DNA of 64,000 nucleotides, from assembly GCA_015179025.1 (NCBI GenBank), contig WHUX01000070.1, positions 186,001 through 250,000 on the forward strand, written 5' to 3'. Position 1 is the first letter of the stretch. Each line of letters opens with the position of its first letter. Positions 144 through 46,093 of this stretch are shown here, in pieces. Source of the stretch: Terfezia claveryi. Taxonomy: Eukaryota; Ascomycota; Pezizomycetes; Pezizales; Pezizaceae. Under the pieces are notes generated by a model that did not search any database, was not told the origin of the DNA, and worked only from the letters and a program-made list of their open reading frames with translations. The position numbers and the translations under genes are program-made.

Positions 144-171
144 AGATAATCGTAGTCTGGTTAGATAATCG
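144..171 (+). mobile_element. TAGTCTGG micro-insertion (10 bp)
   Basis: TAGTCTGGTT at 153-162 is flanked by perfect 9-bp direct repeats AGATAATCG at 144-152 and 163-171. It is the simplest form of the family: 10 bp of insert plus one duplicated target. Confidence 0.8.
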
Positions 172-270
172 GGGCGTTAAAAAGTTCAACAACGTTCGTC
201 AGATTCCTTTTACAACTGATTCTTGCAGCTTCTTGTATTTAATTTGGGACTTGTAACTATTTAATTACCA

Positions 271-423
271 GGAAAACTGGTGAATAAGACTCCTTGTCTG
301 TATCTTTGCTCTTTCCTTTTTGTGGTAGGGGCGTTACTAGTTGTGGGCAGATTAGCGTCCTTGACTCGGATTTTGAGAGTATGATTCAGATACAGACAAG
401 TGAGTCTTATTCACCAGTTTTCC
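271..423. repeat. Hairpin element with ~34-bp inverted repeats
   Basis: The sequence GGAAAACTGGTGAATAAGAC and its continuation (271-304) returns as its reverse complement at 389-423, with one extra base in the arm. About 85 bp separate the arms. The whole could fold as a long stem-loop and resembles a very small MITE. No transposase or clear target duplication is visible, so the class is unknown. Confidence 0.65.
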
Positions 424-3400
424 CGGGTAGGAAATAACTTTGGTGTTAGATACTACGGATGTCAGCAGACTTATTACTGTCGTCCTACCTAATTTTCACC
501 GGGCGGGGGATGGGCATAGGTAGTTAAGAGTGTGTTTAAATAAAGAGAACTAATGAATAATGACGTGAGTAACTTCCCCCACGCAGAGGACGGGATTAGT
601 ACTAAGTAAACAATTTGATATTGATATTCATATCATGTTGATACCGAGAACACTTTTTAACATCCACCATGACTATGCCTTTCCGAGCATCTATGACACG
701 TTCTTATTATATGCACCTGCCTGAGCACAGAATTATCTCATGAAGTACTTTATTACTTATGTAATTCCTCTGGCCCCATATAAAGCCTCAAACTGTGGGT
801 TATGCCACTTGCTAACAGCATACTGTACATATTGAATCCGAATATAAGTACATTAAGTAGGTATACCTACTCCTGTATAAGGGCATCTTATTACATGATG
901 GACATATCTAATGCATGTCTGAGGTGATGCAAAGATATTGGCATTGTAATTTTTTCCGGGGTATGTAATGTTGTTTTTAGCTCCACTGCAGATCGTCTCA
1001 TGTGGTTATGGAAATGCGTAGAATTTCTTCGGACTCCAAATTATCGCGGTGATAGGCCAATTAGCACGAGGGTCTGATCGAGACAAAATTTAGCTACATA
1101 CCTTATGATCGGAATGGGCTCACTTTACTTCCGATACGCAACGTTAACAGTGAGCCTTCCGATTGTTGTCTCTTCTGGGAGATGCTATACAATCAGCTTA
1201 ACCAGATGTACGCCTGTAGTCTGGTTGCTCGGCACGCCGTTATGAGTGAACGAAGGGATTCGATGGTGTATGCGAGCTGTGCTCAGAGGAAGGTATTTGC
1301 TGTCGGTCGTGCTGGCGGTAGCGAATCCATTAAAGCACTGATGGAATGGTATGATATTTTGTGTTGCCATCTCACCGTGCCCTGGACTTTCGAAGAGTGA
1401 GAAAGCTCTCCCCACTTTCAGACCTTCCCGCTAATGTAGACATTATACCCGGGGGGGAAGAACTGATGTATTCAGGCTTATCCTGCTCACAGGCTGTCCT
1501 TTCACAAACCAACGACATTCCCCTCAATCGATTGAAAAACAACGGATATTATTGCATTACCATGCTCTGGAAAAAAATCAAAATATAGGGTACAAAGTTC
1601 CGGCAGTTGCTGCTCAGTGGTTGGTGGTTATACAGAATCCGAGCAATTCCTAATACTACACGAGTCCACAGCAGATCTAGAAGCACGTGCAGTGATGACC
1701 CTTCAACGCAGAATGTTTCAATTTTTACACGTCAGTGGAAGTCCTGTGTCGTTGTCACCTACTGCCTGAAATACCTGCGTGAATCTCCTCAATGTGCTCG
1801 CAAATTTGTGCAAAAGGTAGTTTGGTTCACAAAAGGGAACCCATGATGCTACCCAATAAGCTAGATTTGGTGTTTAGGCAGCATCCTTGGCTGATATATT
1901 GCACGAACCCCAGCGTGTTCGGCACGAGATCACTGTATTTCTTCCAAGGAGACAACTGCGACTCAAAATTGTTTGCGTTTAAACTGAGGTGTTCAGTGTT
2001 GCTAATTCTCTACCAAAGTCGCGGTCGATTTTCTTGCCAAAGGGTACACACCCTGGCAAATCAACAGCTCCTATGACGACACCGTGCTTCCATCAGCAGT
2101 TACAATTTCTCGCTTCATGTATGTCTCAGCGCTGGCAGATTTAAGTACTCGAAGTCATACATATGAGAGGGTGCTTAAAGGTCAGCATGCAAACATACCT
2201 ACCTTTCGGGGTCATCTGGCTCAGGCACTCCATAGGCCCAGGGTATTATATTCAATATGGGGCTCTCGGATGGACAGTTAGCCCTCCTTGGGGAAGACTT
2301 CCATGCATGGAAGCTCAACGTCATGGTGCCGCTCAGCGATGGGGGTTACCTTTATAGTTTTCGTCCCTGTGTGCGGGGATACTGCCGAGACACTCTACAA
2401 AGAACTGCAGTCTCTTATCAACAAATGAGGATATGTCCTAGATATGATACTTTCCTCTGTCTTACATTGGATTGGTCTAGACTGGAAGACGATATGGATA
2501 CCTCTGGCCACAGTATGTCTCTCGTTTCAAAGGCAAGCCAAACTAATGGCTTTGGTGGTCAGTAATGCAAGTTATGACAATATATTTAAATGTTTCTTTT
2601 ATATATATGACGCTTGCAATAAATCTTTGAGGATTGGGTGTACCAACCACACGAGAACACTCTTGAAGTGAAAAATACCCATGGGCACTTTATTTATATA
2701 AGCTTGGACATCACCAGGCTAGACTGCCATTGCAGGAGGCAATGCTAATATTGTGATACATGACCACCGCTTCGATGGGCATTAACTAGTCGAGCACAAC
2801 TGTGCTGAATGAAACGATCGGACTCTGACCTATCAGACTACTAATCATTTGGGCTTGAGTATCCTTGAGTCCGTCGGCCGCGGGCCGAAACTACAATGCA
2901 ACCCGCTTGCTCCCATCTGCTCTAGCAAGCGATGCTCCTTTAAGTAAAAACCAACGTACTACGTCATGGGTAGTCTGGTTTAATTTTTACCACCCACTTA
3001 GGTACCGCCCACCTATGTACAGCTACTAGCTTAGGGCTAAATTGTACTCTAGCGGGTGCAATATTTAATGCACGCATACCGACTTACATATGTAGCCATT
3101 GGCAGATACTCACGCATGTAAACTCATGAATGGCGATAGATACTCACCTCAATCTGATACGCCCGCATATTTGCGCCTCTCCTCTCCGCTTTCTTCCGTC
3201 GTCTCGGTCGACATATAAGCTTTAACAACCCCAGAATCGATCCGAAAGCTAGCTAGTATACTGCGTGCGAAACACCAGACCACCACATATCATCAAAGCA
3301 CCAGACCGCTCCCTGCTTAAGCCGCAACTCCCGTCGATCCACCACCAGATACAGCTTTAGATCGAGACACTTCAGTACGTTGCAGCACAAAGTCTCCGAT

Positions 3401-3429
3401 AGTAGACTTTTGCGATCAGGAAGTTGGCT

Positions 3430-4874
3430 ATGGGTCCTCCTACCTCAACCGGACGCCGTTCAATCTTCTCCGATGGGATTGATATGCTGGAATCGTCCCT
3501 TGCAAATGTCAACTTTGGGGGGGTGGATAATCGCACAATGGACGATCTATTATCGTCCACATACTCTGCTATTGGGAACCTGGAGGCGATAAGTCCGGAC
3601 TGTCTACCAACGATACCCATTTCAATAGAAGCCCCAGAATATGCGCCTGCGTCTCGAGGAGGATATCCTGTGTTACCACAAGAAATTGTATTGCACATCT
3701 TGAGTTTTGTGCGGCCAGACAATCAGCAACTTTTTGCAAATGCATGCAAGGTTTCTCGGACTTGGTATCACGCCGCCATTGGACATTTGTAAGTTCCGTC
3801 ATTTTGATTTTACCTGGCTGCAGTAGATGTGGTGTGCGTCCGATGTATGTGTCATGTTAACATGAAATCTCCTGCAGGTACGCCCGGCCTTACATTACTA
3901 CTGGAAAATATGAGAAATTCATAGCGCAAATATGTCCAACAGTTACATATACCAAACACTCTCCCCTAGCAGAGTTTATCAAGTCGCTGGATTTGAGCCA
4001 CCTGCTCTACGACGGTAAACCGTCGTACACAGCTCGGTTACTCCGAAGGACTGCACCAAATTTGGAGGAGTTCATTGCTCCTGCAACACAGTTCGGTTAT
4101 AGCTGCATGGTCGCTCTAGGCAACTGTCACCAATTGCGAGTTTTAGATCTACGGCTAGTAACACAATCCTTGGGGCTGGTCGACTTGTTCAAGACAATGA
4201 GTCGCCTCAAGGAGCTTCGAACCCTGACTTTCCCACGATCATTGATGATGACCACGGGAGAGCAGGGAAGGACCTTTTCAGGAGGGTACAATCTACCCGA
4301 GAAACTGGAGTGCTTTTGCCTAACTGGGAATGTCTCTGATACATTTCTCACGACAGTCAATGTATCAGAGAACTTAACGGAGCTGCGAATTGCCCACGCC
4401 TTTGCAAGGCACGGATCAATAAAAAACCTGTTGAATAGGTGGTCCTCCCAATTGAAGGTCTTGGAGATTAACTATCACATATCTACACTTCCACACAACG
4501 CTATGGATAAAATACTGGTCACGTGCATCGGTTTGGAGAAGTTGCGTATAGCAGTGGATTTTGTTAGCCATCGATTGTTTGACGAGGAGAACACGCCAGT
4601 CAATCATCCACTGAAGAGGCTGGACCTGGACAGTAGTGGATACCTAGGGGCAGGACATAAACTGAATGCGGATCACATCTTCATATGCCTTGCTGAGGGA
4701 CGATTGCCCCATTTACGAATACTACGAATAAGTGAGAAGCTGAACTGGAAGGGTAGGGATGCACAGGGGTTAGCGGATTTAGCGGTAGTGCTGGAGTCAA
4801 GGGAGACTGACCCGGGTGAGTTAGTTGGCGTTTGGGAATTTGATACCATAGAACCAGGGCATGGCAAGTTTTAA
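3430..4874 (+). CDS. F-box protein with leucine-rich C-terminal region
   Basis: Two exons, 3430-3788 and 3878-4874, separated by an 89-bp intron with GTAAGT donor and CTGCAG acceptor; the product is 451 aa. The F-box lies around residues 80-118 (LPQEIVLHILSF followed by a CKVSRTWYHAA segment). The remainder is rich in leucine and in repeated L..L..L patterns such as LRVLDLRL and LRILRI, typical of degenerate LRRs. By family knowledge, F-box proteins bind Skp1 and recruit substrates to SCF ubiquitin ligases; this substrate is unknown. The start is the ATG at 3430, following an in-frame TTG. Fungal F-box/LRR proteins diverge fast, so no orthologue is named. Confidence 0.85.
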
Positions 4875-5677
4875 TGAAGGGAAGTCTTAAGAATGTTTTA
4901 TTACTAGCGTTCTCAGGGAAAGCTATTCATACTAGAAGTCATATACGTTAACCTTTATATTTATATTTCAATGAAGGAAGGTTTTGGTCTTGAGGCATGC
5001 TCGATTATGCAGGAGAGTATCGATCACCATCTGGTTATCTGCTCTATAACTTACATTTAAAACACATTATTCACAGGCTTTATGATGTAGACTTTTTATT
5101 GTGACAACAACTCCAATTGATCTCGAATTTAAGTCAGTGTACATTTTGTATAATTGAAATTGTTTGCTCAATATTGAATTATGATTATAATTTAGCGGAG
5201 GCTTCATGATATAACCTTGGGAGCTATGGGCGGAATATAGTCTCTCGGAATATATAAAAAATATGTACTATACTATACTGGTACATATATAGGTAGTATA
5301 AATCTCCTGTGCAGCAAGTCAACGGTTCTGGGTCGTCACGCTGCAGGGCACATGTATAAGTCCAAGAATGACCTACTTTACTGTAAGCACTTGATCTCGG
5401 CCTCAAGCACACAGGGGTTGCGAACCACAAGGGATCGTTAATGCTAGACAAAGGGCGCGTTTACTTGATGGTAATTTCCCCCTCCTAAGTCGGGTGTCGC
5501 TCACAAAGGAAAGAGATCGTCTCACTGAAAACGCCGCCATTTGTCTCGGACTTGGTGATCTTCTATTGACTTAACTACACACATCGTCAACCTCAGAGTC
5601 GACTCAGATCTTGGAACGACAGAATTAGGATTTCCTGATCGCTAAAGCCAACTTTAACCTCAGAAGTTGCCTCGAGG
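4875..5677. other. Intergenic region F-box / rgd1
   Basis: About 800 bp. AT-rich, with no recognisable gene, RNA or repeat. It should hold the terminator of the F-box gene and the promoter and leader of rgd1. Confidence 0.5.
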
Positions 5678-5714
5678 CCACCAAACTGTTGTGCCAACCA
5701 GCCTACCACCAAAC
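5678..5714 (-). mobile_element. TAGTCTGG micro-insertion in the rgd1 leader (19 bp)
   Basis: The 19-bp insert TGTTGTGCCAACCAGCCTA (5687-5705) is flanked by perfect 9-bp repeats CCACCAAAC at 5678-5686 and 5706-5714. One base differs from the usual CCAGACTA end. The right repeat ends 7 bp before the rgd1 ATG at 5722, so the insertion lies immediately upstream of the start codon. Confidence 0.8.
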
Positions 5715-5721
5715 GAACATC

Positions 5722-11095: not shown

Positions 11096-11099
11096 TAGG

Positions 11100-20691: not shown

Positions 20692-20732
20692 GAAAACCCT
20701 GTCTGGTTGGCACAACACTCTCCCAAGAACCC
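20692..20732 (+). mobile_element. TAGTCTGG-type insertion, degenerate duplication
   Basis: TGTCTGGTTGGCACAACA begins at 20700; flanks GAAAACCC (20692-20699) and AAGAACCC (20725-20732) differ at two positions. A neighbouring repeat unit (about 21015-21035, CAATCAAGAACCTAGCG) lacks the insert. Probably an older copy. Confidence 0.5.
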
Positions 20733-20883
20733 AGAGTGCAAATGAGCCTGAACCCAGCATCCAAAGCGGCCTATAAACCAGCAACCCAGCTTAGCTTAAC
20801 CCAGCGTGCAATAATTGAGGCCTGAAACCAGCAGCAAATACTTCTTGGCGAGTTCAGGGTAACTCCTGTCATATAGTAATCAG

Positions 20884-20911
20884 TAAGTCAACTAGTCTGG
20901 TTTAAGTCAAC
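20884..20911 (+). mobile_element. TAGTCTGG micro-insertion in the minisatellite (10 bp)
   Basis: TAGTCTGGTT (20893-20902) between perfect 9-bp repeats TAAGTCAAC (20884-20892 and 20903-20911). The related unit at about 21429-21446 reads AGTAAATCAACCAAGAACCC without insert or duplication, so it represents the empty site. Confidence 0.9.
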
Positions 20912-21381
20912 CAAGAACCAGGGTCCAAATGAGGCCGAAATTCCAGCGTGGAATTGAGTTTTGAAACCAGCGTCCAAAAAACCAGCGTGCAAATAAGCCC
21001 GGAAACCAGCTTAGCAAATCAATCAAGAACCTAGCGTGCAAATGAGCCTGGAACCCAGTTCCAAAGCGGCCTAGAAACCGGCGTCCAAATGAGCCCGAAA
21101 CTCAGCTTAGCCTGATCTAGAATTCAGCATGCAATTAAGGCTTGAAACCCAGCAAATTCTTCTTGGCGAATTCAGGCTACCCTGGGTGAGTTCAGGGTAA
21201 CATTGTCGTATTGCAATTAGTAAAACCCAGCGTGCAATTGAGTATTGAAACCAGCATCCAAAGAACCAGTGTTCAAATGAGCCCAAAACTCAGCTTAGCT
21301 AATCAACCTAGAACCCAGGTGCTTGAAACCAGCCCGAAACCCAGCAAATTCTTCTTGGCGAGTTCAGGGTACCCTGGGTGA

Positions 21382-21406
21382 GTTCAGGGTTAGTCTGGTT
21401 CAGGGT
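21382..21406 (+). mobile_element. TAGTCTG micro-insertion in the minisatellite (7 bp)
   Basis: GTTCAGGGT occurs at 21382-21390 and 21398-21406 with TAGTCTG between. The related units at 20852-20860 and 21190-21198 carry one GTTCAGGGT followed directly by AAC, giving two empty-site references. Confidence 0.85.
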
Positions 21407-21804
21407 AACACATGCCGTATAGTAATTAGTAAATCAACCAAGAACCCAGCGTGCAAATGTACCTTGAAACCCAAAGCAGCCTAGAAACCAGCGTCCGAAT
21501 GAGCCCGAAAACCAGCTTAGCAAAGCAACCTATAAACCAGCGTGCAAATGAGCCCGGAAACTAGCTTAGCGGGATTTCGCAACTTATTTATTGTTATGTC
21601 ACTATGGCAACCCAACAAACTTCAGATGTTACTATGGCAACGACTTACTAGTAAATAGAAATAGCCGCAGCTTGAAGTATACTTATATAACGTACAGTAT
21701 CTACCCCTCTTGTATTTCCTCTCACTCAAGGTATAGCTATCCAAACAGCTCATCGCTTTAGATATGGCTTCTCACGATCGAAAACTCCTTACAGTGCAGA
21801 GTGC

Positions 21805-22125
21805 GTGCTGCCTTCCGAAGTTGAACAAGCTCTAGCAAGTACTCAACTGCCACCTATTCTAAACCTATCTTCAAGCAGCGGAAAACCTATTTCAAGCAGC
21901 GGTAGCAGTAATAGAGTCCAACTTACAGAGGATGTAAAGGTTAAGCTTGTTATTCTATATACAATATCAAGCAGACCACCAGTATAATAAAAAGGCTTTT
22001 TGGGTACAGATTCGGGATCTATTGCAGGAAGAGATTGGCAAAGCATTGCGAGATCCCCAACAAACAGCAAACATATTGGTCGCTCAGTTTGAGGACCAAA
22101 TTTAAAAGGAGGAAAATGAGTCTGG
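21805..22125 (+). pseudogene. Relic of an unidentified gene
   Basis: Frame 1 from 21805 reads MLPSEVEQALAS and continues through a serine-rich stretch to VQLTEDVKVKLVILYT, then stops. After a one-base shift the sequence continues as QYNKKAFWVQIRDLLQEEIG and LRDPQQTANILVAQFEDQI (to about 22110). The two halves look like one protein with a helix-rich segment, possibly DNA binding, broken by a frameshift. Further coding-like text downstream (to about 22400) could not be joined. The family is not identified. Confidence 0.45.
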
Positions 22126-22489
22126 TATGTTTTAAATTTAATATATATTCATAATTTGATCAAGGCTGAGATGGAGAAGTATCTGACGTACCTCACTCCG
22201 TGTAAATCGAAAGAACTCAACACACAATCAGTGTCTGTAAACTGACCGAATCCAATTGCTGGGGCTGGGAGTGGAGGTGATAAGGGTTGTCAATAACGTG
22301 AATTATCATAGCAGTGCGATCTGTGTCTCATTTGCAGTTGCTATCGCTAGAGTTGCTGCTGCTGCTGCTGATTTCGCTGTCATGGCTGGTATCTACCACT
22401 TAACATAAACCTCTTCTTTCTGTTTCTTCGCTAACTTTAAGGCTTACTAACCATAGACATAGCCATAACAAGAAAGCTCGCGAAATTCC

Positions 22490-22565
22490 TCTAACCAATC
22501 AAGAACCCAGCATCCAAAGCAGAGTAGATACCAGCGTCCAAATGAGCCCGGAAACCAGCTTAGCC
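22490..22565. repeat. Outlying minisatellite fragment
   Basis: AATCAAGAACCCAGC, CCAGCGTCCAAATGAGCCCG and GAAACCAGCTTAGC are shared with the array at 20595-21575, 0.9 kb away. This suggests the relic at 21.8-22.1 kb was inserted into, or is bounded by, the array. Confidence 0.75.
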
Positions 22566-22569
22566 AATC

Positions 22570-23428
22570 AATTAAGAACAGAAGAATCTTTTATTTCAAA
22601 ATGTCAAAACGAGTTACCACAGTCCACTGTACTTCTTTAACTACACCTACTTCTTAGGTCATCCTCGTTGTAGACTCGTGCTCCAGAGATATGTAGTGAA
22701 CTGGAGCATTAAGGAATGGATACCTTAAAACCTTACTCCCTCGCCCTTCCAATGATATTTAGGCAATTAGCTTTTTGCCTCCACTGGGATTCGAACTTGG
22801 CCCTCAATAAGCAACCATGTCCGTAAAGTAAAGAACCTCCTACCGTCAGTTCATAGATTAAATGCCAATTATGCAGTTGAATTACACCAAAATGCTGGAT
22901 TATGCAGATGAACTTAAGGTTTATGGACTGATTCCGAGCAATTCTATTACCTGATTCCAGCTGATTTGGAGCAACTCATATCAGCCTGTTCCCATAGCCC
23001 GTATAAGGTGATTCTTAGGATATAGAGCTCGATATATGAGACAGTCGAGGCTGGCAGGGCATGCTTATAGAGCTCGATATAAGAGAAACTCGTGGCTTGC
23101 AGGCTGTTTTGCACGCTGATATATACCTTGATTTGCACGCTGAGATCTAGGCTGATGTGGAGACTGGGGTCTAGGCGGTTTGAACGCTGAGTTGTAGGCT
23201 GATTTGCAGGCTGAGATCTAGGTTGATTTGCATGCTTGGATATATACCCTCGGGGGTGCAACCAGACTGCCCCCGGGGCCAGCAATTTCCCTGCCCTCCG
23301 GTAGAGTAGGCACCGTCCTTATAGCATAGCGATAGTACTCTCTTCACGAATTTTGATTTACCATCCCTTAGGTGTAAGCCTCAAATTTCAAGAGAAAAAC
23401 CAAATCTTTCATTTTGTATAAAATCAAA
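22570..23428. other. Non-coding stretch with short tandem duplications
   Basis: No gene seen. Between about 23020 and 23245 two short repeats occur: ATAGAGCTCGATATA twice (~47 bp apart), and GCTGATTTGCAGGCTGAGAT-like units four to five times. Confidence 0.55.
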
Positions 23429-24047
23429 ATGCAACTGTCCAAAGCTATCCCCGCCCTCTCCCTCGTCGTCTTCACCTCCGTCACCGCCATGCCTACTCAT
23501 GGCGGGGGCTTATGCCAACCAGACTAGCCTACTCATCCTCTACGAGGGTCTGATCGAGACTACCTACTCACCCAGGTCCGGATTCCAAAGACGGTATAGT
23601 CCACACATGGACAATAAGCCGAAAATGAACATTGCCGATAACCCCATGTACAAGTGCAAAGGCCCCAGGTAAGACTTGCCAAAAGTCTTGGAAGGGCAAA
23701 GGTGACAAGAAAGATGGCATGCGGAAGGTCAAGAAGCCAACGAAGAATGGGGGACAGAAGCCAGAGAACAAGGGGGGAAAGAAGCCAGAGGAGCCTCAGA
23801 GGGGGGACCAATGGGCCCAAATGGTGAGGAGCCGGAAAAACTTGGGGAGAAGCCAGACGGACCACCATCATCTAGTACCAAGCCAGAGAAGAAGAAGCCA
23901 GACGTAAAACCACCATCAGGTACCAAGCCGGAGAAGCTTGATACAAAGACCCCACCCGGCGAAAGGAAGCCCACTCCATCGGATTCCACTGTCAATATTG
24001 AATCCGAGAATCCACTTACTGAGAACCCAGACACGACTACTCCATAA
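23429..24047 (+). pseudogene. Broken gene for a small secreted lysine/proline-rich protein
   Basis: The ATG at 23429 opens a signal-peptide-like sequence (MQLSKAIPALSLVVFTSVTA) followed by MPTHGG. The frame stops at 23527, inside a micro-insertion. Downstream, frames encode K/P/G-rich sequence (GGKKPEEPQRG, then GPMGPNGEEPEK, KPEKKKPDVKPPS, ending ENPDTTTP at 24047). The last two parts are offset by one base near a G run at about 23800-23807. An intron may lie near 23590-23650. Without the insertion the first exon would read on through HPLRGSDRDYLL. Function unknown; the composition resembles fungal secreted low-complexity proteins. Confidence 0.55.
23491..23536 (-). mobile_element. TAGTCTGG micro-insertion in a coding exon (26 bp)
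   Basis: The 26-bp insert (23501-23526), ending TATGCCAACCAGACTA, lies between perfect 10-bp repeats GCCTACTCAT (23491-23500 and 23527-23536). The insert's terminal TA plus the first G of the right repeat creates the TAG stop that ends the secreted-protein frame. Confidence 0.88.
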
Positions 24048-25479
24048 ATGACCCCCGACCTAGGGACAGCTGCAAGGCTGTCTGGTCTAACAGGCTTGAA
24101 CCCCAATTATCCTAGTTTTTTCTTTTTCTTGGCTGGGCATCATTTGCAACTGAGGGGCTATTGGTATACATGTAATGAAGTTTTTTTTTTTTTTCTTTTT
24201 GTTGATTGAGTTAAAAAAAAAAAATCGGGAATTGAGAGCAGTTATTTGTTCTGTGATTTTTAATTTTGAACAAATGTTATGATTAAGAGTAGATTCTACA
24301 GGAGACATCAGAGCTTGACCACCAGTGAGATAAAAATACATTAATTGGAGACAGAGAGAAAATCAGGGTAATCGGGGGGAGAAAGTGCACTGGGAACCAC
24401 TTTAAACGCAATGAACACAGGGAAAAAAATCAAAACTAACAAAATACAAATATTATCAATATATATTATGACGAAGTGACGAGCCCCGCCTCCTGGAAAG
24501 AAGCCATGAGAGTAATGTTCATGAAGAACCATCTACTGGACCCTATGGATCTGGGAGATCCATAAGGTCGATGGCAAATGGAGAAGAGCCAACAGGGTAG
24601 ACTTTTTCTGAGAAAATTTTCCTTGTATCTTCGGAAATACAGAGCAACCGGTCTTACACATGTCAACTAGAGAAGCATGGCTAGCTCTGGAAAGCTTACA
24701 TCTGGACCCTTCCCTCCTGGGGGGTACCAGACACTCCCAGGAATTGCCAGGTCGGGTGCACGTCCGGAATAGTCTGGTTGTCCGGAAGGCCTATGGGTAG
24801 GAGTTGCTGCCCAGGCGTTACAGTGTTGCCAATTAAGTGACCGTTCTAGAAATCTATCTATTAATCTAGTTTTTTCCCCATCCGCCCCCCAAACGTTACA
24901 TTATTCTACCTAACGGTCCTGCCAAACCGCAAAGCAAACAAGACCCCACCACAAGCATGCACCTTTTCATGTATATTCACTGAATTGTTTCATTGATATA
25001 AAAGACATGTATTTTGCTTATTAAAATGTTTCTCAGACGGACATGCTGCATGCAGTCTCAGTGTACCCACTACAAAGACTCCATCAGCTTCACACAGTAG
25101 CGGCCTCTTGACTGTGGGATAGATGTAAAATAGCCAGGGTGTATTTCTGAAGCTTTCAGCTTCTTCGTCACCAGAGGAGCTTGTGCACGTCCTCCCACAT
25201 GTCCTTGAGTGTGGAAACTGGTAGTAGGTCTCCGAGTTCATCTTTGATACGGAAGCCAGTATCTATTATGTGTATAAGAAAGCTAAGGGGAAGGAATAAA
25301 CGAATGGATAAGAGAAAGGAAGACTGAGCCCCCAAAAATGAGATTTGGTATGTCTGAGTGTCTCCGGCTTGAAAGCCAGGCTATTTGTCCTTCATGATAG
25401 AATGTGAAGTAATATGAGCAATATGTAGTGATGTCACATCTTATATTGTAGTGTCTCTGTGATGATATCAGTCATAGAA
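24048..25479. other. Non-coding stretch
   Basis: No supported gene. It holds a poly-T / poly-A pair (about 24180-24232) able to form a hairpin, and the micro-insertion at 24762-24787. Short minus-strand open frames near 24990-25241 lack any recognisable motif. Confidence 0.5.
24762..24787 (+). mobile_element. TAGTCTGG micro-insertion (10 bp)
   Basis: TAGTCTGGTT (24770-24779) between perfect 8-bp repeats GTCCGGAA (24762-24769 and 24780-24787). Confidence 0.85.
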
Positions 25480-25809: not shown

Positions 25810-25876
25810 GGTCGTCGAGTCAGGTTGGCACAACAGCCCCGCCTAAGGTCGTGCAGTCTGGTTAAAGGTCGTCGAG
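25810..25876 (+). mobile_element. Nested pair of TAGTCTGG-type micro-insertions
   Basis: Outer 10-bp repeats GGTCGTCGAG at 25810-25819 and 25867-25876 bracket 47 bp beginning TCAGGTTGGCACAACA. Inside, AAGGTCGT at 25845-25852 and 25865-25872 brackets GCAGTCTGGTTA. The simplest reading is a first insertion, then a second insertion into the right-hand duplication of the first. Confidence 0.75.
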
Positions 25877-29783: not shown

Positions 29784-29830
29784 AACGACCTCCTGTGGAG
29801 GGTGTTGTGCCAACCAGACTAAACGACCTC
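29784..29830 (-). mobile_element. TAGTCTGG micro-insertion (29 bp)
   Basis: A 29-bp insert (29793-29821), starting CTGTGGAGGG and ending TTGTGCCAACCAGACTA, lies between perfect 9-bp repeats AACGACCTC (29784-29792 and 29822-29830). One of the longest single copies. Confidence 0.9.
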
Positions 29831-31627: not shown

Positions 31628-31828
31628 ATGCTCGGCGCCAATCTCAATGAAGAACTGAAAGAAACCCTTGATAGCATAGCGCACCGCCTAGAAGTTCTTC
31701 TACATTCTGGAATTGAGGCACACGATAGCAACCAGACTAATAGCAACGGCGCTATAGGGATCTCGGTTGAAGAAGCTGGTGAGCAAGAAGATGAAGCAAT
31801 CGCGGAGATACCAGGAAATTCTCTTTAG
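31628..31828 (+). CDS. Small acidic open reading frame carrying a micro-insertion
   Basis: 66 codons from an ATG at 31628. The N-terminal half looks helical (LNEELKETLDSIAHRLEVLL) and the C-terminal half is acidic (VEEAGEQEDEAIAE). No family recognised. It may be a real small gene, a last exon of the HNH relic upstream, or chance. A micro-insertion adds five codons (NQTNS or equivalent) in frame. Confidence 0.3.
   Translation: MLGANLNEELKETLDSIAHRLEVLLHSGIEAHDSNQTNSNGAIGISVEEAGEQEDEAIAEIPGNSL
31725..31747 (-). mobile_element. TAGTCTG micro-insertion, in frame (7 bp)
   Basis: CAGACTA (31733-31739) between perfect 8-bp repeats ATAGCAAC (31725-31732 and 31740-31747). The total gain of 15 bp leaves the surrounding frame open. 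Confidence 0.75.
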
Positions 31829-32224: not shown

Positions 32225-32257
32225 TATCCCTCTCTGTGCCAACCAGACTATCCCTCT
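32225..32257 (-). mobile_element. TAGTCTGG micro-insertion (15-17 bp)
   Basis: TATCCCTCT at 32225-32233 and 32249-32257 brackets CTGTGCCAACCAGAC; the terminal TA of the family is shared with the first two bases of the right repeat. Confidence 0.82.
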
Positions 32258-34105: not shown

Positions 34106-35104
34106 CCCCTAAGCCCCGCCACCAAACTAGTTACTTTTCACCTAAATCACCCTTGCTATAACGGATTTTTGCTTATACAGTCTACCCTTGCTATAACGGA
34201 CGGCAGAAATCCAGGGCTTTCTGTCCGGTATAGCAAGGGTTCCGGTATAGAAAATGGCGCTAGCCCTCAGCAGGGGCTGACCAGTCACGTGGGTTCTGAG
34301 AACTCCCATATTGTCCTCCAATAAGGGTATTTCGAGTCACATTAAGCCTAACAGAGTAGATTATTCAGCAACCAGACCTGCCTCAGCGAGGGAGAAATGT
34401 ATGGGGACAGCCCCTGCACTCCTCTACCACTCTGTCCGGTCCGGTATAGCGAGAGGCAATTTGCTGGTAAGAAATCCGGAAGCCTCTGGTCCGTCCGGTA
34501 TAAAAAGGAATCCGCTATAGCGAGGTCCGGTATAGCAAGGGTAGACTGTACCGGACTGGACAGCGAAGTTACTACTATCTACATATATTTTGCCCTTGCT
34601 ATAACGGAATCCTTAAGTAGACACTGCTCCAGAACCGGGTATTGAGATGTTTGCTCCTTTTACTTCCATGAATCGACTGCTGTAACATCAACCTCAAGCC
34701 ATTTCTTACTATGTATCACGTAAGATGTCCGACAATGTGGATGTTGGTACAGCTCGACCTTGCTTTATATTAGGATCTCTACCAACATAGATTTACCATT
34801 CTTCATACCTCAGAGTCTAAGAAATGATTTCCAAATTCACTCAATTTCTCCTTCGCATGCTTAGGATCTTGTCGCTTTTTACAGATCTGGTGCTTCTCTA
34901 ATATGGTGAGCGCTGAACGCTTTTGTTGCACGCAACATGTTGACTGATGAGCTTAATGTTCAAATATACGGAAGTTGAAGAATTTTCCTTCTTTGGTAAC
35001 TTTTGTCTTGTCCCACGTACCCTTGTATTATTTCATACCGGAACCTTGCTATACCGGACAGAAATGGCTGGATTTTGGTCGTCCGGTATAGCAAGGTTAG
35101 ACTG
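34106..35104 (-). mobile_element. Pogo-like (Tc1/mariner) element remnant, copy A
   Basis: The right end GGTATAGCAAGGTTAGACTG (to 35104) is followed by TA; the left end is truncated near 34106. It shares nearly identical sequence with 45350-45996 over several hundred bases. On the minus strand (about 34680-34930) a decayed transposase N-terminus can be read (VPTSTLSDILRDT), resembling the CENP-B/Tigger helix-turn-helix of pogo transposases. A MITE is inserted within it (34178-34548). Confidence 0.7.
34178..34548. mobile_element. MITE with 24-bp TIRs, TA target site
   Basis: 371 bp. The left TIR begins CAGTCTACCCTTGCTATAAC and the right end is its inverted repeat with one mismatch; both ends adjoin TA (34176-34177 and 34549-34550). 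The related copy B reads TTTTTGCTTATACCGGACTGG (about 45414-45434) with no insert, giving the empty site. TIR similarity to the host element suggests mobilisation by the same pogo-type transposase. Confidence 0.88.
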
Positions 35105-35212
35105 TATGTCGAGGTTCACTATAGCCAGGTTTACCTGTACACGCCCAGTACCCAGTACACCGCAGCCTGCATACCCGGCTTACCCAACTTGTCAATTATA
35201 AAACGAATACCA

Positions 35213-35261
35213 GGGTCGATTCTAGTCTGGCTTGCACTAGCCTCTCGGTAGATGGGTCGAT
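35213..35261 (+). mobile_element. TAGTCTGG micro-insertion (about 33 bp)
   Basis: 8-bp repeats GGGTCGAT at 35213-35220 and 35254-35261. The insert starts TCTAGTCTGGCTTGCACTAG; two bases precede the usual TAG start. The inner part CTTGCACTAGCC matches the copy near 31536, which lacks a clear duplication. Confidence 0.7.
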
Positions 35262-36271
35262 ACAACATTTGCAACTGGCTCTTTCATTAAGCGGTTTGAA
35301 GATTCATATGTTAACTTTGTGAGGTCTATCCAAAACTTTGCCTATCCTGTCCATTTCAACCCAAAAGTCTGGTCTGGAATACGATGGTCAGGATGAGACA
35401 ACCCTTCCTATAGTGGAGATGCAATACGTTATCCCAATCTATCTCCTTTACCCTTTCAATATGGTTGAGGGGTTGCTGAAACAAAGATTCATATTGTGGA
35501 TACTACCCCATGGATGAACATGAAAGAAGGCGATTTAGAGCAGTGGTCGCTTATACCAATTCACTCAACGAATGCCGTTTATACGTTGAGGCTCACCCCC
35601 ATAGGACATGGTCTACCGTACCTTCAGCCAAGGCTTTGAACGATATCTTGCGACTAATCCACGAATGGAGTGCGCAGATCTGGGGGAGCTTGATGGCAGG
35701 GTAACTAGAGGAATTCCCCCTCATGGGACTGTGCGGTTGAGAGAGGCAGATGCGAGAAAAGACAGGATGTTAAGGGAGGAAGGAAGGGCAAGAGAAAATA
35801 AGCTACGAAAGAAGTTTGTCTGGTGATTGACGTACTTGCATGCCGTGGGTGATAAACGAAGCAGCTCTTGCCATGTCGAGCCTAAGAAGGCCTTGTGCTG
35901 TTCACTATTGCAGAAATCTAGTAAATCAGACCCCACGATCTTTTCCTGTCCTTGCTAAACTTAAAGCTGACGCTTCCAATTGCTGAGGTTGTACAAACCT
36001 CGTGTGTAACGCCGGGTCTATTCGGTGTGCAACCTGAGTCCCTCTCACATTGCCAGTCTAATCTCAAGTAGCGTATACGATGTCTCTCTTCGATGCAGGG
36101 GATCAAGTATAATGGTTTTCCACTCCCCTATCCATGAAAACTCACCATTAATACTCTCTTTACCTCCCCTGAGGGGAACGCGTGGTTTCCTGCCCAATGT
36201 TCGAAAGCTCGCCGGTATTGTTCACTCCTTAGAAACAGCTTATTTGTTTCCTGATCTTTTTGCCGACTCGG
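35262..36271. other. Intergenic region with an unidentified ORF
   Basis: A 64-codon plus-strand frame (35510-35704, starting MDEHERRRF) and an overlapping frame ending in a charged helix (to 35826) are unidentified. The promoter and leader of the next gene should lie in 35830-36271. Confidence 0.4.
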
Positions 36272-38569
36272 ATGTGGTCATCAGTCCCTTCGGCCAGGGC
36301 GTCCTTGCCCAGGCCGAGCCTCACTCTTTTAATTATTCTCGGCACTGTATCCAATGCTTCGGCACAGGCGATATGGATGCAATTCGCGCCGGTATCGCCA
36401 GCACTGAATACTACGGATGATTTCTTAATTCCATTCACACTGGGCTCCAATAAGCAAGTCGTCAACCTTGCCCCTTCACTAACCCAAACTGAAACATCAA
36501 TAATTGGCCCTAAAGCGTGTACACCGCCAGGGCAGAAGGACCCAAAAGATAAATGTATATTATATCGTGGAGGGGCCTTTGAGGAGTCAAAAACCACCGA
36601 TTTCAATGCCGGCTCTGATGAATTCAACTACAAAAATCCGACGTTCGGTACATACTCAAATGGCCATATGGGCAAGGATACTGTGTATTTGAATGGGGGT
36701 GATGGAAGTTTGGAAGTCAACGATTACCAGTTCGCCGTCATTGAATCGAGCAACATGACAAGTGGTATGTTGGGTTTGGGAAAAGACTCGACATTCCTAA
36801 AAAGGCTGTATGATGACGGAAAAATTGCAAGTCGGTCCTTTGGGCTTCATGTTGGTATAGATATCTGGAACCATCCATGGCCAGTTCTGAACCCTACATT
36901 CGATGAATCGGGCAACAAGCCTACGTCTAAGGATGACCTCAATACTGGGAACGGAAAGAGGGCTGCGGAAACACACAAGAGTTTTATCCGCCAGGAAACA
37001 GGCGACAATCAACTGCCCATCCGTGAAAGTCACAAGTTTCCAGGGTCTCTCACCCTGGGCGGTTATGACAAAACTAAGATTTTCAATAAGACAAAGCCAA
37101 TCAATGTGCCAATTGCCGACGATGGTTCACTCCAACTTTCATTAACCAGGATCGTGGCACGCAATATCCATGCAGATAGCCCATTTGACCTCATCTCAAA
37201 ACCCTTGAGCGTGGTTATTGATGCAGACACCCCCCACATGTACTTCCCACGGAACATATCTCGTAATATAGGAGGGATCTTCAGCGCCGTCTATGGTGAA
37301 CCAGGAGAGGATTTCTTTTATACAAACCTGGCGGATAGAGAAAAGTATCTGGGGAATCTCACCATGACTTTTACTGCACCGGATGGGAAGGGCGATGAAA
37401 TTGAAATTTTGATACTACCAACAGTTTGGTATCAACCTATTGGGTACATGAGGAATTTTGGATTGGTTGGGAATGACGAATACAATTACTATGCCCCAAT
37501 AAGGGAGTGGGCACAGGATCCGAAGTCCATACAAATTATCCTTGGGAGATCGTACGTATCAGCACTGGATACTTTAAAGGAGATTCTAATTGAAACCAAA
37601 AATAGATTTCTTAAAGCAGCCCATCTTTTTGTCAATTATGACACAAATAAATTTCAGCTTGCTCAAGTGGCATATACCAATAGTACCCAGGACATCGTCA
37701 CTGTGGCAGCTGATCAAGACACACCTAACGATAATGCACCTACTGGAAATTCAAATGAAAACTCAAAAAATGGCCCACAAGATGGCGGGGGGAATATGGG
37801 AGTTCCTATACCGATCCTTGTGGGCGCACTTGGCGGTGGTATCGTCTTTATTGTAGCTCTTGTCCTTATTCTTTGTTGTCTCAAGAAACGACGGAACAGG
37901 GAAAAGACTAAGCAGCATCAACAGCTTGAAGATAGGCCCAACACTGGTACAAGCGATCTACCAATAGGTGGGCGTATGGAAATGGACGGCGATAACGTTG
38001 CAATGGTGAAACTCAACCGCCCAACCACAGCTGCTTCCCATGCAGAATCTCATGCAGAGCTACCTGTGACGAAATTCAAACCCACACCTCCTGAACTTCC
38101 CTCTACGGATGTGTATAAGAAAGCAGAGCTTGGAGCAGCGGCACGTACCTATGTGGAACTCAGGACAAAGACTGGTTATCATGAGATGCCATCAAATACA
38201 GTCTTGTCGACCACTCCTCAACAGGCTCACCCTCCTGTTTCTCCAAATCTAGCTAAATATCCATCTCCATCTCAGTTCCCGCTACCAAGCACGCCGTCAA
38301 CCCCTGGCTATCCTGGTTACAATTACCAGCACCAGCAATATCCACCACCTACTGAGCCCCCATCACCAACTTGGCAACAATACCCAGGCCCACCTCCGCC
38401 AAATATGTTCCCAGCGAGGTACGTGCCGCCGCCACCCCCCCCAAATCCGCCATCACCGGGTTCGCCGTATAAATATGCTCCTCATCAATTCCCGGGGCAG
38501 ATATATCAACCGCATCCTATTCCGACACTAAACCCACTTCAGCGTACCAGCCTGCATGAAATGGCGTGA
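36272..38569 (+). CDS. Aspartic-protease-like single-pass membrane protein
   Basis: Single exon, 765 aa from the ATG at 36272. A signal peptide (SLTLLIILGTVSNASA) is followed by an ectodomain of ~480 residues with the fold pattern of pepsin-family A1 proteins (GMLGLGKDSTFLKRL, FPGSLTLGGYD, LSVVIDADTPHMYFP, IILGRSYVSALD). Next come a linker, a transmembrane helix around residues 512-537 (VGALGGGIVFIVALVLILCC), a KKRRNR stop-transfer and a long proline-rich cytosolic tail (PPPPPNPPSPGSP). The first catalytic D-[TS]-G is not seen (N-L-A-P-S instead) and the second region has D-A-D-T-P. It is therefore probably not an active protease and may act as a cell-surface or wall-sensor-type protein. Confidence 0.82.
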   Translation: MWSSVPSARASLPRPSLTLLIILGTVSNASAQAIWMQFAPVSPALNTTDDFLIPFTLGSNKQVVNLAPSLTQTETSIIGPKACTPPGQKDPKDKCILYRGGAFEESKTTDFNAGSDEFNYKNPTFGTYSNGHMGKDTVYLNGGDGSLEVNDYQFAVIESSNMTSGMLGLGKDSTFLKRLYDDGKIASRSFGLHVGIDIWNHPWPVLNPTFDESGNKPTSKDDLNTGNGKRAAETHKSFIRQETGDNQLPIRESHKFPGSLTLGGYDKTKIFNKTKPINVPIADDGSLQLSLTRIVARNIHADSPFDLISKPLSVVIDADTPHMYFPRNISRNIGGIFSAVYGEPGEDFFYTNLADREKYLGNLTMTFTAPDGKGDEIEILILPTVWYQPIGYMRNFGLVGNDEYNYYAPIREWAQDPKSIQIILGRSYVSALDTLKEILIETKNRFLKAAHLFVNYDTNKFQLAQVAYTNSTQDIVTVAADQDTPNDNAPTGNSNENSKNGPQDGGGNMGVPIPILVGALGGGIVFIVALVLILCCLKKRRNREKTKQHQQLEDRPNTGTSDLPIGGRMEMDGDNVAMVKLNRPTTAASHAESHAELPVTKFKPTPPELPSTDVYKKAELGAAARTYVELRTKTGYHEMPSNTVLSTTPQQAHPPVSPNLAKYPSPSQFPLPSTPSTPGYPGYNYQHQQYPPPTEPPSPTWQQYPGPPPPNMFPARYVPPPPPPNPPSPGSPYKYAPHQFPGQIYQPHPIPTLNPLQRTSLHEMA

Positions 38570-42444: not shown

Positions 42445-42757
42445 CGTCTTACGATGTGGGTTGGATTGGGAGAAAGTGTGGTGTGGCTAGGTAAGTATGT
42501 GGGAGGTGTAGGCTATGGGTGGTTTGGTTGGGGGCTGCCTGAGGTGCCTGATATTCCCGCTCCGTGGATGATATTATATTAGATGGTGACGTGGGGGAAA
42601 TTTAGATGCAACGTTGACCTTCGTTGAAACATTAGAGCCTGGAAGACAGGGTCAAAGCAGGGTCACGTGTAATGTATCCAAACTCTTGTATTTTCACCCA
42701 TTATAATTTGGATGAGATATATAACGATATCATTCTATGCTACAACAAAGTCCCCCC

Positions 42758-44991
42758 TTACATATTACCAAGTACCTTTGCAATCCCCCCGGTTTTCTCT
42801 TTGAGGCTTTGGCCGTAGGCGAATTGAATCAAACCTAGCACATATGTAATTTAGCAATTACCGTGAAGGCGCTGGCGAACTGCGGAAACATACCTTTGGT
42901 GAAGTTCCAGCTGTCTTCCGGTCTTGTAATTGGATAGTCAACAATCGGGGGAATTCCAGTGTTTATCAGTGAAGGCCACCGGTCCACAAGTACACTTTTC
43001 AGGTTACAGACATCACGGAGGCCCTCTTCTCCAGCAAACCGGCCATACCCTTTGGGTAAAGTTAGCAACATGAATCTCACACCTCATGAGACAATAGCCT
43101 TACCAGACCCACGTACACCACCAAATGGAAGACTCTGGTTAAGATAGAAGCTTGCAAAATCATTGACAGCAACCATTCCGCATTTCATCTCTCTAACAAC
43201 TCTGTCGATATGGGCTTGGTTCTTTCCATACACTGAACCGCCTAAGCCAAAGTTTGCAGAGTTTGCGATTTTGATTGCCTCATCGACATTTCGAGCCGGC
43301 ATCAACACGCAAATTGGGGCGAATGTCTCGTTTTGTGCAATTTCCATGTCCGAGGTAACATCTACGAGAAGTGTAGGCTGGAAGTAGTGACCCTTGGGAA
43401 ATTTCGGGTTGGTATATCTTTTTCCACCCACGAGGCAACGTGCTCCTTTGCCAACAGCCTCCTTAATCATTCTTTCCAATTTATCGAAGCAAGCAGGAGA
43501 GATCATGGCTCCCATATCGACTTGATCCTCATCAATTGCTGAGCCAAGCCTTAATTTTGAAATCCTTGGTTCCAAAATATCGATCAGTTGCTTGTATACC
43601 TTTGGCAAGGCAATGATCCGCTCAATCCCAATGCAGTTCTGAGATGCGCTCTGAAAAACACCCCGCATCAGCACACTACACAAGGACTTAAGATTCTTGA
43701 CGTCATCTAAAATGATATGAGCATCTTTTCCACCCAGCTCAACGCAAAGCGGGACAAGGTTTTTTGCAGCCGAGGAGGCAACATGATGGGCAACCAGGCG
43801 GGATCCAATAAACGTTATGTGCTGAATTCCAGGATGCGATGTAAGGTATGGTGCAACATCTGGCCAACACATGATAGGCTTTAACCTCTGATCAGTATAA
43901 TTTCCCCATCGAAGTTTTTTCATAAATATTGTACCTGAACGAGGTTAGGGTCGTGACCACAGGCTGACAGTGCCCCCTTAACGATACCGATATAAAATTC
44001 GGAGGACCAAGCAGTATTTTCACTACCCTTCACTAATAAATATTAGAAAAATATCATCTTACCCGGTACATATATATACATACCAATTATGCCATTACCT
44101 GCGAAAATTGAACTAACGATCGGCCCCAGAAGATTGTGAAACTACAGCTCCAGCATAAGTATAGTAATGGGAATAACCCTAGAAGCCGATGCCTACCGGA
44201 TAGCTAGACGCAAATTTAAGTAAAACCCAAATATATATGCTCGAGTAAGGGGTCTTACTTCCAAGATACAAGCGCAGCTACAACTCCAAGAGGCTCAAAT
44301 CGAACTTCCGCTTTTTTATAAACCATCATAAAAGAGGTAGGTCTTTTCTCAGGCCTCAATGCCCTCTCTCCGTAGTCCAGAAGATATTTGATTTTCTCAG
44401 TGGTCACAAGAATTTCTCCCAAGGCGGCATCCACGCGAGTCTTTCCAGAATCGAGGCAGGATGCTTGGACAATTGCATCCTGGTTTGCCAAAATATACCT
44501 GTAGTATCCGTTAGAGCTTGAACAAGATCCTCTCCAATGCCATAGAACCAAACCCTTGAAGTGTCCGTAGAACCTTTCTTCGCTCATCGAATGACGTCCG
44601 AGCCCATGATACTTGGGCCTTAGCGGCCTTCACGATAGCAGCATCAATATCGGCACATGAAGCTGGACGGACGAACCCAAGGAATTTTCCGCTAGCAGGA
44701 CAATAGCATTGAATGTCATTGCTGCCAGGAGCCTTTCCAAGAGTCAGCCAGGGTCAGTCCAGAGGCTACTCTGTCCCAAACCTTTATCGATGGGTTTTCG
44801 AGCACTTTCCCTTCCCAACCCGGATTACACTGCTCAGGGACCGGCACAGTGTATGGTACCCCAGCCCACTTGCTTGCTCGAACATTGGGTATGACCACTG
44901 TGGCGAGCACAATTGTAGCAACAGAGACGGCAATGGTGCTCAAATGCTCTGTTAGAGCTTCAAGGACTGCGACATGAATTCCTCCGGCCAT
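42758..44991 (-). CDS. msc7: Membrane-anchored aldehyde dehydrogenase (Msc7-like)
   Basis: Nine minus-strand exons: 44991-44782, 44732-44554, 44498-44259, 44203-44197, 44141-44084, 44032-43935, 43887-43104, 43049-42894, 42834-42758; 602 aa. An N-terminal transmembrane segment (residues ~18-40, LSTIAVSVATIVLATVVIP) precedes an aldehyde dehydrogenase domain: DSGKTRVDAALGEI, the segment SWNYPFHNLLGP, ITFIGS, VELGGKD (general-base Glu), QNCIG (catalytic Cys), ETFAPI, LPFGGVRGSG. The domain oxidises aldehydes with NAD(P). Yeast Msc7 is the closest named relative by architecture. Exon 4 is only 7 nt and supplies the last base of Asn plus Tyr-Pro; without it the reading frame is lost and the YP of SWNYPFHN is missing. 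Close neighbour of yif1 on the same strand (about 310 bp). Confidence 0.88.
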
Positions 44992-45247
44992 AGTGGGTGG
45001 TGTAGGTTCAGACCTGGCTTTATGTAGCACGCCCAACTGTTGACTAAATTACTTATGCCATACGCCGATCGTTACCTCCATTGCTCATGTGTAGTCTGCC
45101 GCTACTCGTTGGATAAAGCTTATGTAGCTGGATCCTAACCAGCCCCTTACCCCACCCCTAGTCTGGTTGGCACAACACCCTCGTACTTACAAGACATTTT
45201 TTTTCGTGTGGTGCCCGGTTCATGTTGGTATCTTGGCAATGTATATA

Positions 45248-45291
45248 CAGTCTAACTAGTCTGGTTGCACTACCCCTCGCAGCAGTCTAAC
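45248..45291 (+). mobile_element. TAGTCTGG micro-insertion inside a pogo TIR (26 bp)
   Basis: Perfect 9-bp repeats CAGTCTAAC (45248-45256 and 45283-45291) flank 26 bp starting TAGTCTGGTTGCACTACC. The duplicated target is the start of the pogo-like terminal repeat itself. Confidence 0.9.
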
Positions 45292-45996
45292 CTTGCTATA
45301 CCTAAGTACCGGACCTCGTTGTACCGGAAACCTTGCTATACCGGAATAGCCCTACGGTAAGCCCCGCCACCAAACTAGTTACTTTTCACCTAAATCACCC
45401 TTGCTATAACGGATTTTTGCTTATACCGGACTGGACAGCGAATACAGAGAAGTTACTACTATCTACATATATTTTGCCCTTGCTATAACGGAATCCTTAA
45501 GTAGACACTGCTCCAGAACTGGGAATTGAGATGTTCGCTCCTTTTACTTCCATGAATCGACTGCTGTAACATCAACCTCAAGCCATTTCTTACTATGTAT
45601 CACGTAAGATGTCTGACAATATGGATGTTGGTACAGCTCGACCTTGCTTTATATTAGGATCTCTACCAACATAGATTTACCATTCTTCATACCTCAGAGT
45701 CTAAGAAATGATTTCCAAATTCACTCAAATTCACCTTCGCATGCTTAGGATCTTGTCGCTTTTTACGGATCTGGTGCTTCTCTAATATGGTGAGCGCTCG
45801 ACGCTTTTGTTTTCCGGCACGCAACATGTTGACTGATGAATCTTGAGCTTAATGTTCAAACATATGGAAGTTGAAGAATTTTCCTTCTTTGGTAACTTTT
45901 GTCATGTCCCACGTACCCTTGTATTATTTCATACCGGAACCTTGCTATACCGGACAGAAATGGCTGGATTTGGTTCGTCCGGTATAGCAAGGTTAC
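45248..45996 (-). mobile_element. Pogo-like element remnant, copy B
   Basis: The left TIR begins CAGTCTAAC after TA (45246-45247) and is interrupted by a micro-insertion, then continues CAGTCTAACCTTGCTATA. From about 45350 the sequence matches copy A (34106-35104) closely but lacks the MITE. The right end is lost after GGTATAGCAAGGTTA. A further TAGTCTGGTTGGCACAAC motif lies just outside at about 45162, without a clear duplication. Confidence 0.75.
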
Positions 45997-46037
45997 ATAG
46001 AACTGTACACAATAGTCTGCCACAACAACAACATCCC

Positions 46038-46093
46038 TGTACCCCGTACTTACCTAGTCAAAGATAGAGTCAAAGAACCAGACTATGTACCCC
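46038..46093 (-). mobile_element. TAGTCTGG-type insertion (40 bp)
   Basis: 8-bp repeats TGTACCCC (46038-46045 and 46086-46093) flank 40 bp ending AAAGAACCAGACTA. A TAGTCTGCCACAAC motif 26 bp to the left (from 46012) points the other way, so this may alternatively be one ~74-bp element with inverted ends. Confidence 0.65.

Follow-up and report, generated by a model that had tools for sequence, protein, structure and literature searches.

Short, mostly one-ended insertions with a fixed terminus and a 9-bp target duplication in Terfezia claveryi

A P element leaves footprints in which the target duplication, 8 bp long, is kept along with a portion of the terminal repeat; its transposase cleaves inside the terminal repeat with a 17-nt stagger. 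Miniature inverted-repeat transposable elements (MITEs) combine a high copy number with a target duplication and inverted repeats at both ends, and REP/REPIN and double-hairpin elements are very short dispersed repeats with hairpins. REP/REPIN and double-hairpin elements are not known outside bacteria and organelles, nor are they known to have a 9-bp target duplication. Here we describe a family of very short insertions in a 64,000-nt stretch of the Terfezia claveryi genome (GenBank assembly GCA_015179025.1, contig WHUX01000070.1, positions 186,001 to 250,000, forward strand; "the window") and in further samples of the same assembly. Like P element footprints, these insertions or "scars" keep part of a terminal repeat and a target duplication, and like REP/REPIN and double-hairpin elements they are dispersed and carry hairpins. 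They have a fixed terminus, a 9-bp duplication, preferred far ends and, rarely, two ends; some of their sites have empty paralogues, and the examined sample holds no long copy.

Among Mutator-like elements (MULEs), Muta1 of Aedes aegypti is 3,198 bp long and, with the duplication present, excises precisely in about 90% of events in yeast (PMC5225508). Solo copies of terminal inverted repeats (TIRs) are described for Galileo in Drosophila mojavensis (PMC3573991) and for internal eliminated sequences of Paramecium that match Thon TIRs (PMC3464196).

Target duplications and empty sites

A first-pass annotation of the window had flagged 13 intervals as a flank, a motif-bearing insert and a second copy of the flank. 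Direct reading confirms a direct repeat around the insert at all 13, and the inserts carry TAGTCTGG, its complement or a variant with one base changed. Ten of the 13 intervals have exact repeats of 8-9 bp that directly abut the insert. The exact repeat at 32225 is 9 bp long but takes in the final two bases of CCAGACTA, which leaves 7 bp by a flush count; at 35213 the exact repeat has 8 bp and lies two bases off the motif; at 25810 two degenerate copies are enclosed by an exact 10-bp outer pair. The insert at 5678 has the motif variant CCAGCCTA, with one mismatch. Six further TAGTCTGG sites in the window (1217, 2971, 31538, 35223, 39979 and 45159) have no exact repeat.

Flanking repeats were counted on both strands in 264 kb (the window plus C1:1-200000), accepting repeats of 7-12 bp, a shift of the motif edge of up to 2 bases and a distance of up to 110 bp, with 15 shuffled motifs as control. 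Repeats flank 29 of the 56 TAGTCTGG sites (19/40 in C1, 10/16 in the window). Of the 56 sites, 25 have a repeat of at least 8 bp, while 13 of the 15 shuffled motifs have none, GTGCTTAG has one and GTAGTCTG, which contains TAGTCTG, has six. The outcome that would have spoken against the family, no excess of flanking repeats over shuffled motifs, was not seen in this 264-kb test. A motif-free scan of 333 kb for repeats of 8-14 bp, 5-70 bp apart, returned 829 pairs as compared to 239 in one Markov control, an excess of which ordinary tandem repeats explain part. The commonest 7-mers among these pairs spell AACCAGACTA/TAGTCTGGTT, and TAGTCT has the highest repeat-flanked fraction (31/179) of all 6-mers with at least five repeat-flanked sites.

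The motif is abundant throughout the assembly (72.56 Mb in 794 contigs). The genome-wide search proposed with the first-pass annotation gives 7,569 occurrences of TAGTCTGGTT against 161 for the reversed-pattern control; TAGTCTGGTTGGCACAAC with up to two mismatches occurs 3,260 times against 1, and the 24-mer TAGTCTGGTTGGCACAACACCCTC 334 times against none.

The target duplication has an essentially constant length of 9 bp, with 8 bp in some cases. Among 65 exact repeats, 33 have 9 bp, 12 have 10 bp, 5 have 11 bp, 8 have 8 bp and 7 have 7 bp, and two further repeats contain a mismatch. The ratio of 9 to 10 to 11 bp suggests to us a duplication fixed at 9 bp that chance matches sometimes lengthen. 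With the test restricted to 9 bp and then 8 bp, 62 of 72 inserts fitted 9 bp and 10 fitted 8 bp. The range of 8-10 bp given in the first-pass annotation narrows accordingly. Base preference within the target 9-mer is weak, with T scarce at position 1 (6/50) and frequent at position 3 (21/50).

To find empty sites, the two flanks of each of 67 inserts were fused and compared with 338 kb of the sample. For seven inserts, one of them weak, paralogues read through the junction with a single target copy: W21391 (two paralogues), W20893, C1:152134, C1:65902, C1:152612, L027:1198 and L027:1501 (the weak case). The remaining 60 had no informative paralogue in the 338 kb, some aligning to family members only. 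A genome-wide search with a 261-base query for L027:1198, in which 40 of 148 candidates were scored, brought up 14 further copies that span the site, and all 14 are counted as empty because their spans measure 204-224 bases as compared to 249-261 for the matched query with its 43 extra bases. The target of the insert at 45257 is likewise uninterrupted in related terminal repeats of the window. These paralogous empty sites support the core of the first-pass annotation, namely real insertions with one fixed end and a duplicated target.

Inserts ending in TAGTCTC form a sister family. They are likewise short, with duplications of 8-9 bp (W48748, W23562, C1:86057, C1:141897 and C1:141835). Seven of 43 TAGTCTC sites have a repeat of at least 8 bp; two of the seven, C1:164333 and C1:164408, resemble a tandem repeat and are therefore not among the inserts just named. 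Locus L057 holds, as judged by eye, a two-ended 33-bp copy of this family with the duplication GCAAAGACT.

The inserts of the window are the following (window coordinates, strand, description, basis where noted):

144..171, plus strand: one-ended insert TAGTCTGGTT, 10 nt; target AGATAATCG on both sides (direct reading and repeat scan)
5678..5714, minus strand: one-ended 19-nt insert with the variant terminus CCAGCCTA; target CCACCAAAC on both sides (direct reading)
20884..20911, plus strand: 10-nt insert; target TAAGTCAAC on both sides; empty paralogue at 21398-21566 (repeat scan, paralogue search)
21382..21406, plus strand: 7-nt insert (10 nt including 3 shared bases); target GTTCAGGGT on both sides; empty paralogues at 21144-21284 and 20844-20892
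23491..23536, minus strand: one-ended insert TAGTCTGGTTGGCATAAGCCCCCGCC(A), 26-27 nt; duplication of 9-10 bp (direct reading, repeat scan, far-end survey)
23528..23570, minus strand: sister-family insert (TAGTCTCGATCAG...), 27 nt; target 9-mer identical to that of 23491..23536; additional to the 13 intervals
24762..24787, plus strand: 10-nt insert; target GTCCGGAA (8 bp) on both sides (direct reading, repeat scan)
25810..25876, plus strand: degenerate nested pair within the exact 10-bp outer repeat GGTCGTCGAG
29784..29830, minus strand: 29-nt insert whose far end lies at +2, counted from the loop centre, in the second hairpin described below; target AACGACCTC on both sides
31725..31747, minus strand: 7-nt insert sharing bases with the duplication; target ATAGCAAC (8 bp) on both sides
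32225..32257, minus strand: insert of about 15-17 nt; 9-bp repeat TATCCCTCT overlapping the terminal TA of the motif
35213..35261, plus strand: variant insert TAGTCTGGCTTGCACTAGCCTCTCGGTAGAT; 8-bp repeat GGGTCGAT, not flush
45248..45291, plus strand: 26-nt insert TAGTCTGGTTGCACTACCCCTCGCAG; target CAGTCTAAC on both sides; situated in the terminal repeat of another element
46038..46093, minus strand: 40-nt insert, family-like in its first 10 nt only; target TGTACCCC (8 bp) on both sides
48727..48757, minus strand: sister-family insert TAGTCTCATGCCT, 13 nt; target ACCTATATT on both sides; additional to the 13 intervals

None of 14 window sites (the 13 intervals and 48727) overlaps any of the 12 open reading frames of at least 200 amino acids. 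Several neighbouring features were observed alongside. One insert from each of the two families lies in tandem at 23491-23570, with a common target 9-mer and in a common orientation. Positions 20700-22600 form a degenerate tandem array of a CCAGCGTGCAAATGAGCC-like unit, the source of the empty paralogues of two scars. Another repeat, which has ends like TACAGTCTAACCTTGCTATACCGGAC and inverted repeats in its interior, is present in two related copies at 34174-35107 and about 45281-45995, and a TAGTCTGG scar sits inside the terminal repeat of the latter copy. The aspartic protease encoded at 36260-38569 is 80% identical to a Tirmania nivea protein over 99% of the query and 92% identical to a Terfezia boudieri protein over 58% of the query, values that by themselves make a desert truffle or a near relative the probable host.

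Far ends, hairpins and two-ended copies

The far ends were surveyed in the window, C1:1-200000, 23 loci from the TAGTCTGGTTGGCACAAC search and the small loci L053-L076 except L063 (a duplicate of L062); the overlapping loci L001-L003, L022, L026, L028 and L029, and also L051 and L052, were left out. The survey yielded 72 inserts flanked by an exact repeat of 9 or 8 bp: 62 one-ended (up to 36 nt), four two-ended and six longer and unclassified. The far side had been described in the first-pass annotation as variable. Rather than forming a continuum, the 62 one-ended inserts cluster at preferred lengths: 7 nt (2 inserts), 10 nt (8), 11-13 nt (3), 14-15 nt (9), 16 nt (1), none at 17-23 nt, and then 24-25 nt (3), 26-29 nt (17), 31 nt (9) and 32-36 nt (10). 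A looser survey, accepting repeats of 7 bp and longer, adds two 17-nt inserts and one of 23 nt. The exact 31-nt insert TAGTCTGGTTGGCACAAGCCTCTCGTAGAGA is found within five different duplications (L011, L061, L062, L065 and L066), although the 31-nt peak as a whole is inflated because L054-L068 were fetched as matches to long inserts.

The terminal strand can be folded as GTTG-GCA-CAAC (positions 8-18) followed by a second hairpin, e.g., CCTCC-ACA-GGAGG or CTC-GTA-GAG. Relative to the loop centre, far ends assigned to the first hairpin fall at +1 (3), +2 (6) and +3 (1), those assigned to the second (n=24) at +1 (2), +2 (8), +4 (2), +5 (8) and +6 to +8 (4). Together 22 of 34 assigned far ends lie at +2 or +5, under a rule that is blind to ends before the loop. 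In V(D)J recombination, a nick at +2 is the dominant position at which Artemis opens hairpins (PMC10212571), and it is because of the resemblance of our +2 far ends to this position that we suspect hairpin processing. A polymerase that leaves its template once the product closes a hairpin would give similar far ends.

Two-ended copies carry TAGTCTGG and CCAGACTA at opposite ends within one 9-bp duplication, and measure 25 bp (L008), 35 bp (L074), 50 bp (L025) and 54 bp (L053). The 35-bp form occurs at three loci (up to two mismatches) and the 25-bp form at four (up to one mismatch); a form with 10 nt of either end occurs at three loci, each with one mismatch. MULEs have inverted repeats at both ends; of the 72 inserts, four were classed as two-ended and 62 as one-ended, with six unclassified. 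At L065 1-111 (G000:C223:931630-931740) a 31-nt scar adjoins a scar of 14-15 nt in opposite orientation and with overlapping targets. An apparent triple target at L016 was considered as a second insertion and rejected, as it is a tandem duplication.

Origin of the inserts

Interiors were compared pairwise at positions 45-105 of 114 TAGTCTGGTT ends, skipping pairs less than 400 bp apart in one locus. No interior is common to different ends among the 114, except for the two arms of a MULE at L051, while random positions gave two chance matches; by our estimate, fewer than about 4% of all ends belong to long family members. Four inward-facing pairs were considered as candidate long parents (C13, 4.3 kb; C24, 8.2 kb; C30, 15 kb; C101, 14 kb) and none is supported. 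Five of the eight ends opened have their own repeat after 25-33 nt, whereas one C13 end and both C24 ends have none; the outer 9-mers of the C24 candidate mismatch each other, and we regard it as unsupported rather than excluded. The long element ending in the motif that the first-pass annotation had suggested looking for was accordingly found neither among the 114 ends nor among these four pairs. C29:113557-114026, likewise considered as a long element, looks like two short two-ended copies with no matching target repeat.

Profile searches of the genome gave 21 matches to MULE domains and at least 150 to hAT. The hAT group was set aside, the duplication mode being 9 bp as compared to 8 bp in hAT, and Merlin/IS1595 was rejected with no PF12762 (DDE_Tnp_IS1595) match in the genome. 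No inward-facing pair of ends flanking a MULE match was seen by eye among 100 listed matches each for TAGTCTGGTTGGCACAAC and TAGTCTGGTTGGCACAACACCCTC. The MULE at L051 1-5001 (G000:C773:254500-259500) has an open frame of 575 amino acids between long arms of tandem units; both arms carry TAGTCTGGTTGG at the identical inner place, facing outward and not at the termini. The duplication agrees with MULEs, in which it has 8-11 bp and usually 9. It disagrees with long and short interspersed nuclear elements (LINEs and SINEs), whose duplications vary in length while that of the scars is nearly fixed at 9 bp. MITEs are compact and have both inverted repeats in most copies, as opposed to 62 one-ended inserts of up to 36 nt among our 72.

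The fixed duplication, the terminus common to two families and the two-ended copies together point to a DDE transposase acting on DNA. We tentatively favour, at a little short of even confidence, an origin of the inserts as ends of a DNA transposon, joined to the genome in end-only or aborted insertions by a DDE, perhaps MULE-like, transposase with hairpin-directed trimming. The source family would have the TIR TAGTCTGGTTGGCACAA..., and its transposase would join the ends to the genome and cut the target with a MULE-like 9-bp stagger. Usually the terminal 10-36 nt of one end would stay joined, the other side being sealed at the edge of the 9-bp duplication after fill-in. Two hairpins may form in the terminal strand (GTTG-GCA-CAAC and, e.g., CCTCC-ACA-GGAGG), and cleavage or strand loss just past the loops would often set the far end before end joining closes the gap. 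We infer the DDE/MULE enzyme, the single-stranded hairpin intermediate, and a transposon body that never integrates rather than being excised later. It is possible, though rather doubtful, that a transposase in T. claveryi routinely inserts transposon ends only, with the body never integrating and hairpins dictating the length kept, as a natural counterpart of tagmentation that has left thousands of heritable insertions of 10-36 nt, each with a 9-bp duplication.

Several observations weigh against this origin. About half of the TAGTCTGG sites in the 264 kb (27/56) have no detectable repeat. The hairpins leave 28 of the 62 one-ended inserts unassigned, including those of 7 and 10 nt, and the 10-nt class is not accounted for by a hairpin loop; four of the eight +5 cases were fetched as long-insert matches, the other four being L011, L015, L021 and L073. 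No transposase with these ends was found among the loci examined, and the single MULE that was read (C773) has other, long repeats. A 53-bp palindromic parent predicted from the commonest arm has no genome copy with up to three mismatches. The publications listed in literature searches that covered few subscription journals describe neither end-only insertion by a DDE transposase at such a scale nor the present family.

The first-pass annotation had named a DNA-transposon footprint keeping part of one terminal repeat as its alternative. This proposal comes closer to our results than reverse transcription does. A footprint by excision, in which full-length elements with 9-bp duplications were later cut inside the terminal repeat and left part of one end, we consider unlikely, though the likeliest of the rival origins. 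Excision would readily give two-ended products in which the second end is 10 nt long, such as 15+10 (L008), 24+10 (C1:88848, with one mismatch in the repeat), 25+10 at three loci (L074 with a repeat, L052 without) and the three 10+10 loci with their single mismatches, and 10 nt is the commonest short length (8/62), as a 10-nt stagger would produce. The long copies it presupposes are nevertheless missing, with no common interior in the 114 ends bar the arms of one MULE and none of the four candidates supported; cut-and-paste transposons do not usually leave behind mostly one-ended copies and no long ones. Independent trimming of both ends moreover predicts many bare 9-bp tandem duplications, of which there is only a weak excess (18 at period 9, 14 at period 8 and 7 at period 10), an argument that loses force because repair may turn bare duplications into empty sites again.

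Our results do not support target-primed reverse transcription with random 5' truncation, the mechanism preferred in the first-pass annotation. Reverse transcription of a short structured RNA with the 3' end CCAACCAGACTA, stopping at hairpins, would naturally yield one-ended inserts without long copies, stops after hairpin loops are plausible, and we keep this route in view because hairpins could also stop a polymerase. It appears improbable, given a duplication nearly fixed at 9 bp (that of a fungal LINE ranges from 0 to 13 bp; PMC12810828), two-ended copies within one duplication, and a far end that recurs at the identical nucleotide across independent loci, as in the five loci of the 31-nt insert; no Rfam family reached its gathering score in the window, and no RNA was identified. 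Very improbable is, finally, a palindromic MITE of 50-54 bp that inserted intact and later lost one arm by hairpin or cruciform processing. L025 (50 bp) and L053 (54 bp) are indeed perfect or near-perfect palindromes with 9-bp duplications, hairpins are present in the arms, and human palindromes undergo diagonal cruciform cleavage and hairpin-tip cleavage (PMC4940405). The idea of a 53-bp palindrome arose from L025 and the mirror-image ACA/TGT loops. It was dropped as an extant parent because the genome-wide search returned no copy, even though its 24-nt arm has 334, and a 25-bp palindrome was dropped as the unit with only four copies (up to one mismatch). Arm loss exactly at the border of the duplication would also require a precise cut.

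Significance and comparison with known systems

Provided that end-only insertion does occur, a transposase can leave thousands of marks in a genome and yet make no copy of itself. The scars would then be a hidden source of small insertions, which repeat annotation would miss because each is shorter than 60 bp, and their lengths would be a natural record of the processing and joining of hairpin-ended DNA in a fungus. Should the scars be excision footprints, they would be an extreme case in which scars far outnumber the surviving elements.

MULEs such as Muta1 share with the scars target duplications of 8 or 9 bp and TIRs (PMC5225508); by contrast, only 7-54 bp remain here, and no transposase-bearing element with these ends was found. 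The solo TIRs of Galileo and Thon are likewise single terminal repeats standing alone (PMC3573991, PMC3464196). They derive from known larger elements, whereas the scars, with no larger relative found, measure 10-36 nt and have a 9-bp duplication. For the Paramecium copies, recombination between short direct repeats within the TIRs has been proposed (PMC3464196). Such a model is hard to apply to an insert of 10 nt.

The scars differ from P element footprints in their 9-bp duplication and in their preferred lengths of 10, 14-15, 26-29 and 31-36 nt. From MITEs they differ in that both ends are present in rare scars only, most classed scars being one-ended and shorter than MITEs usually are.

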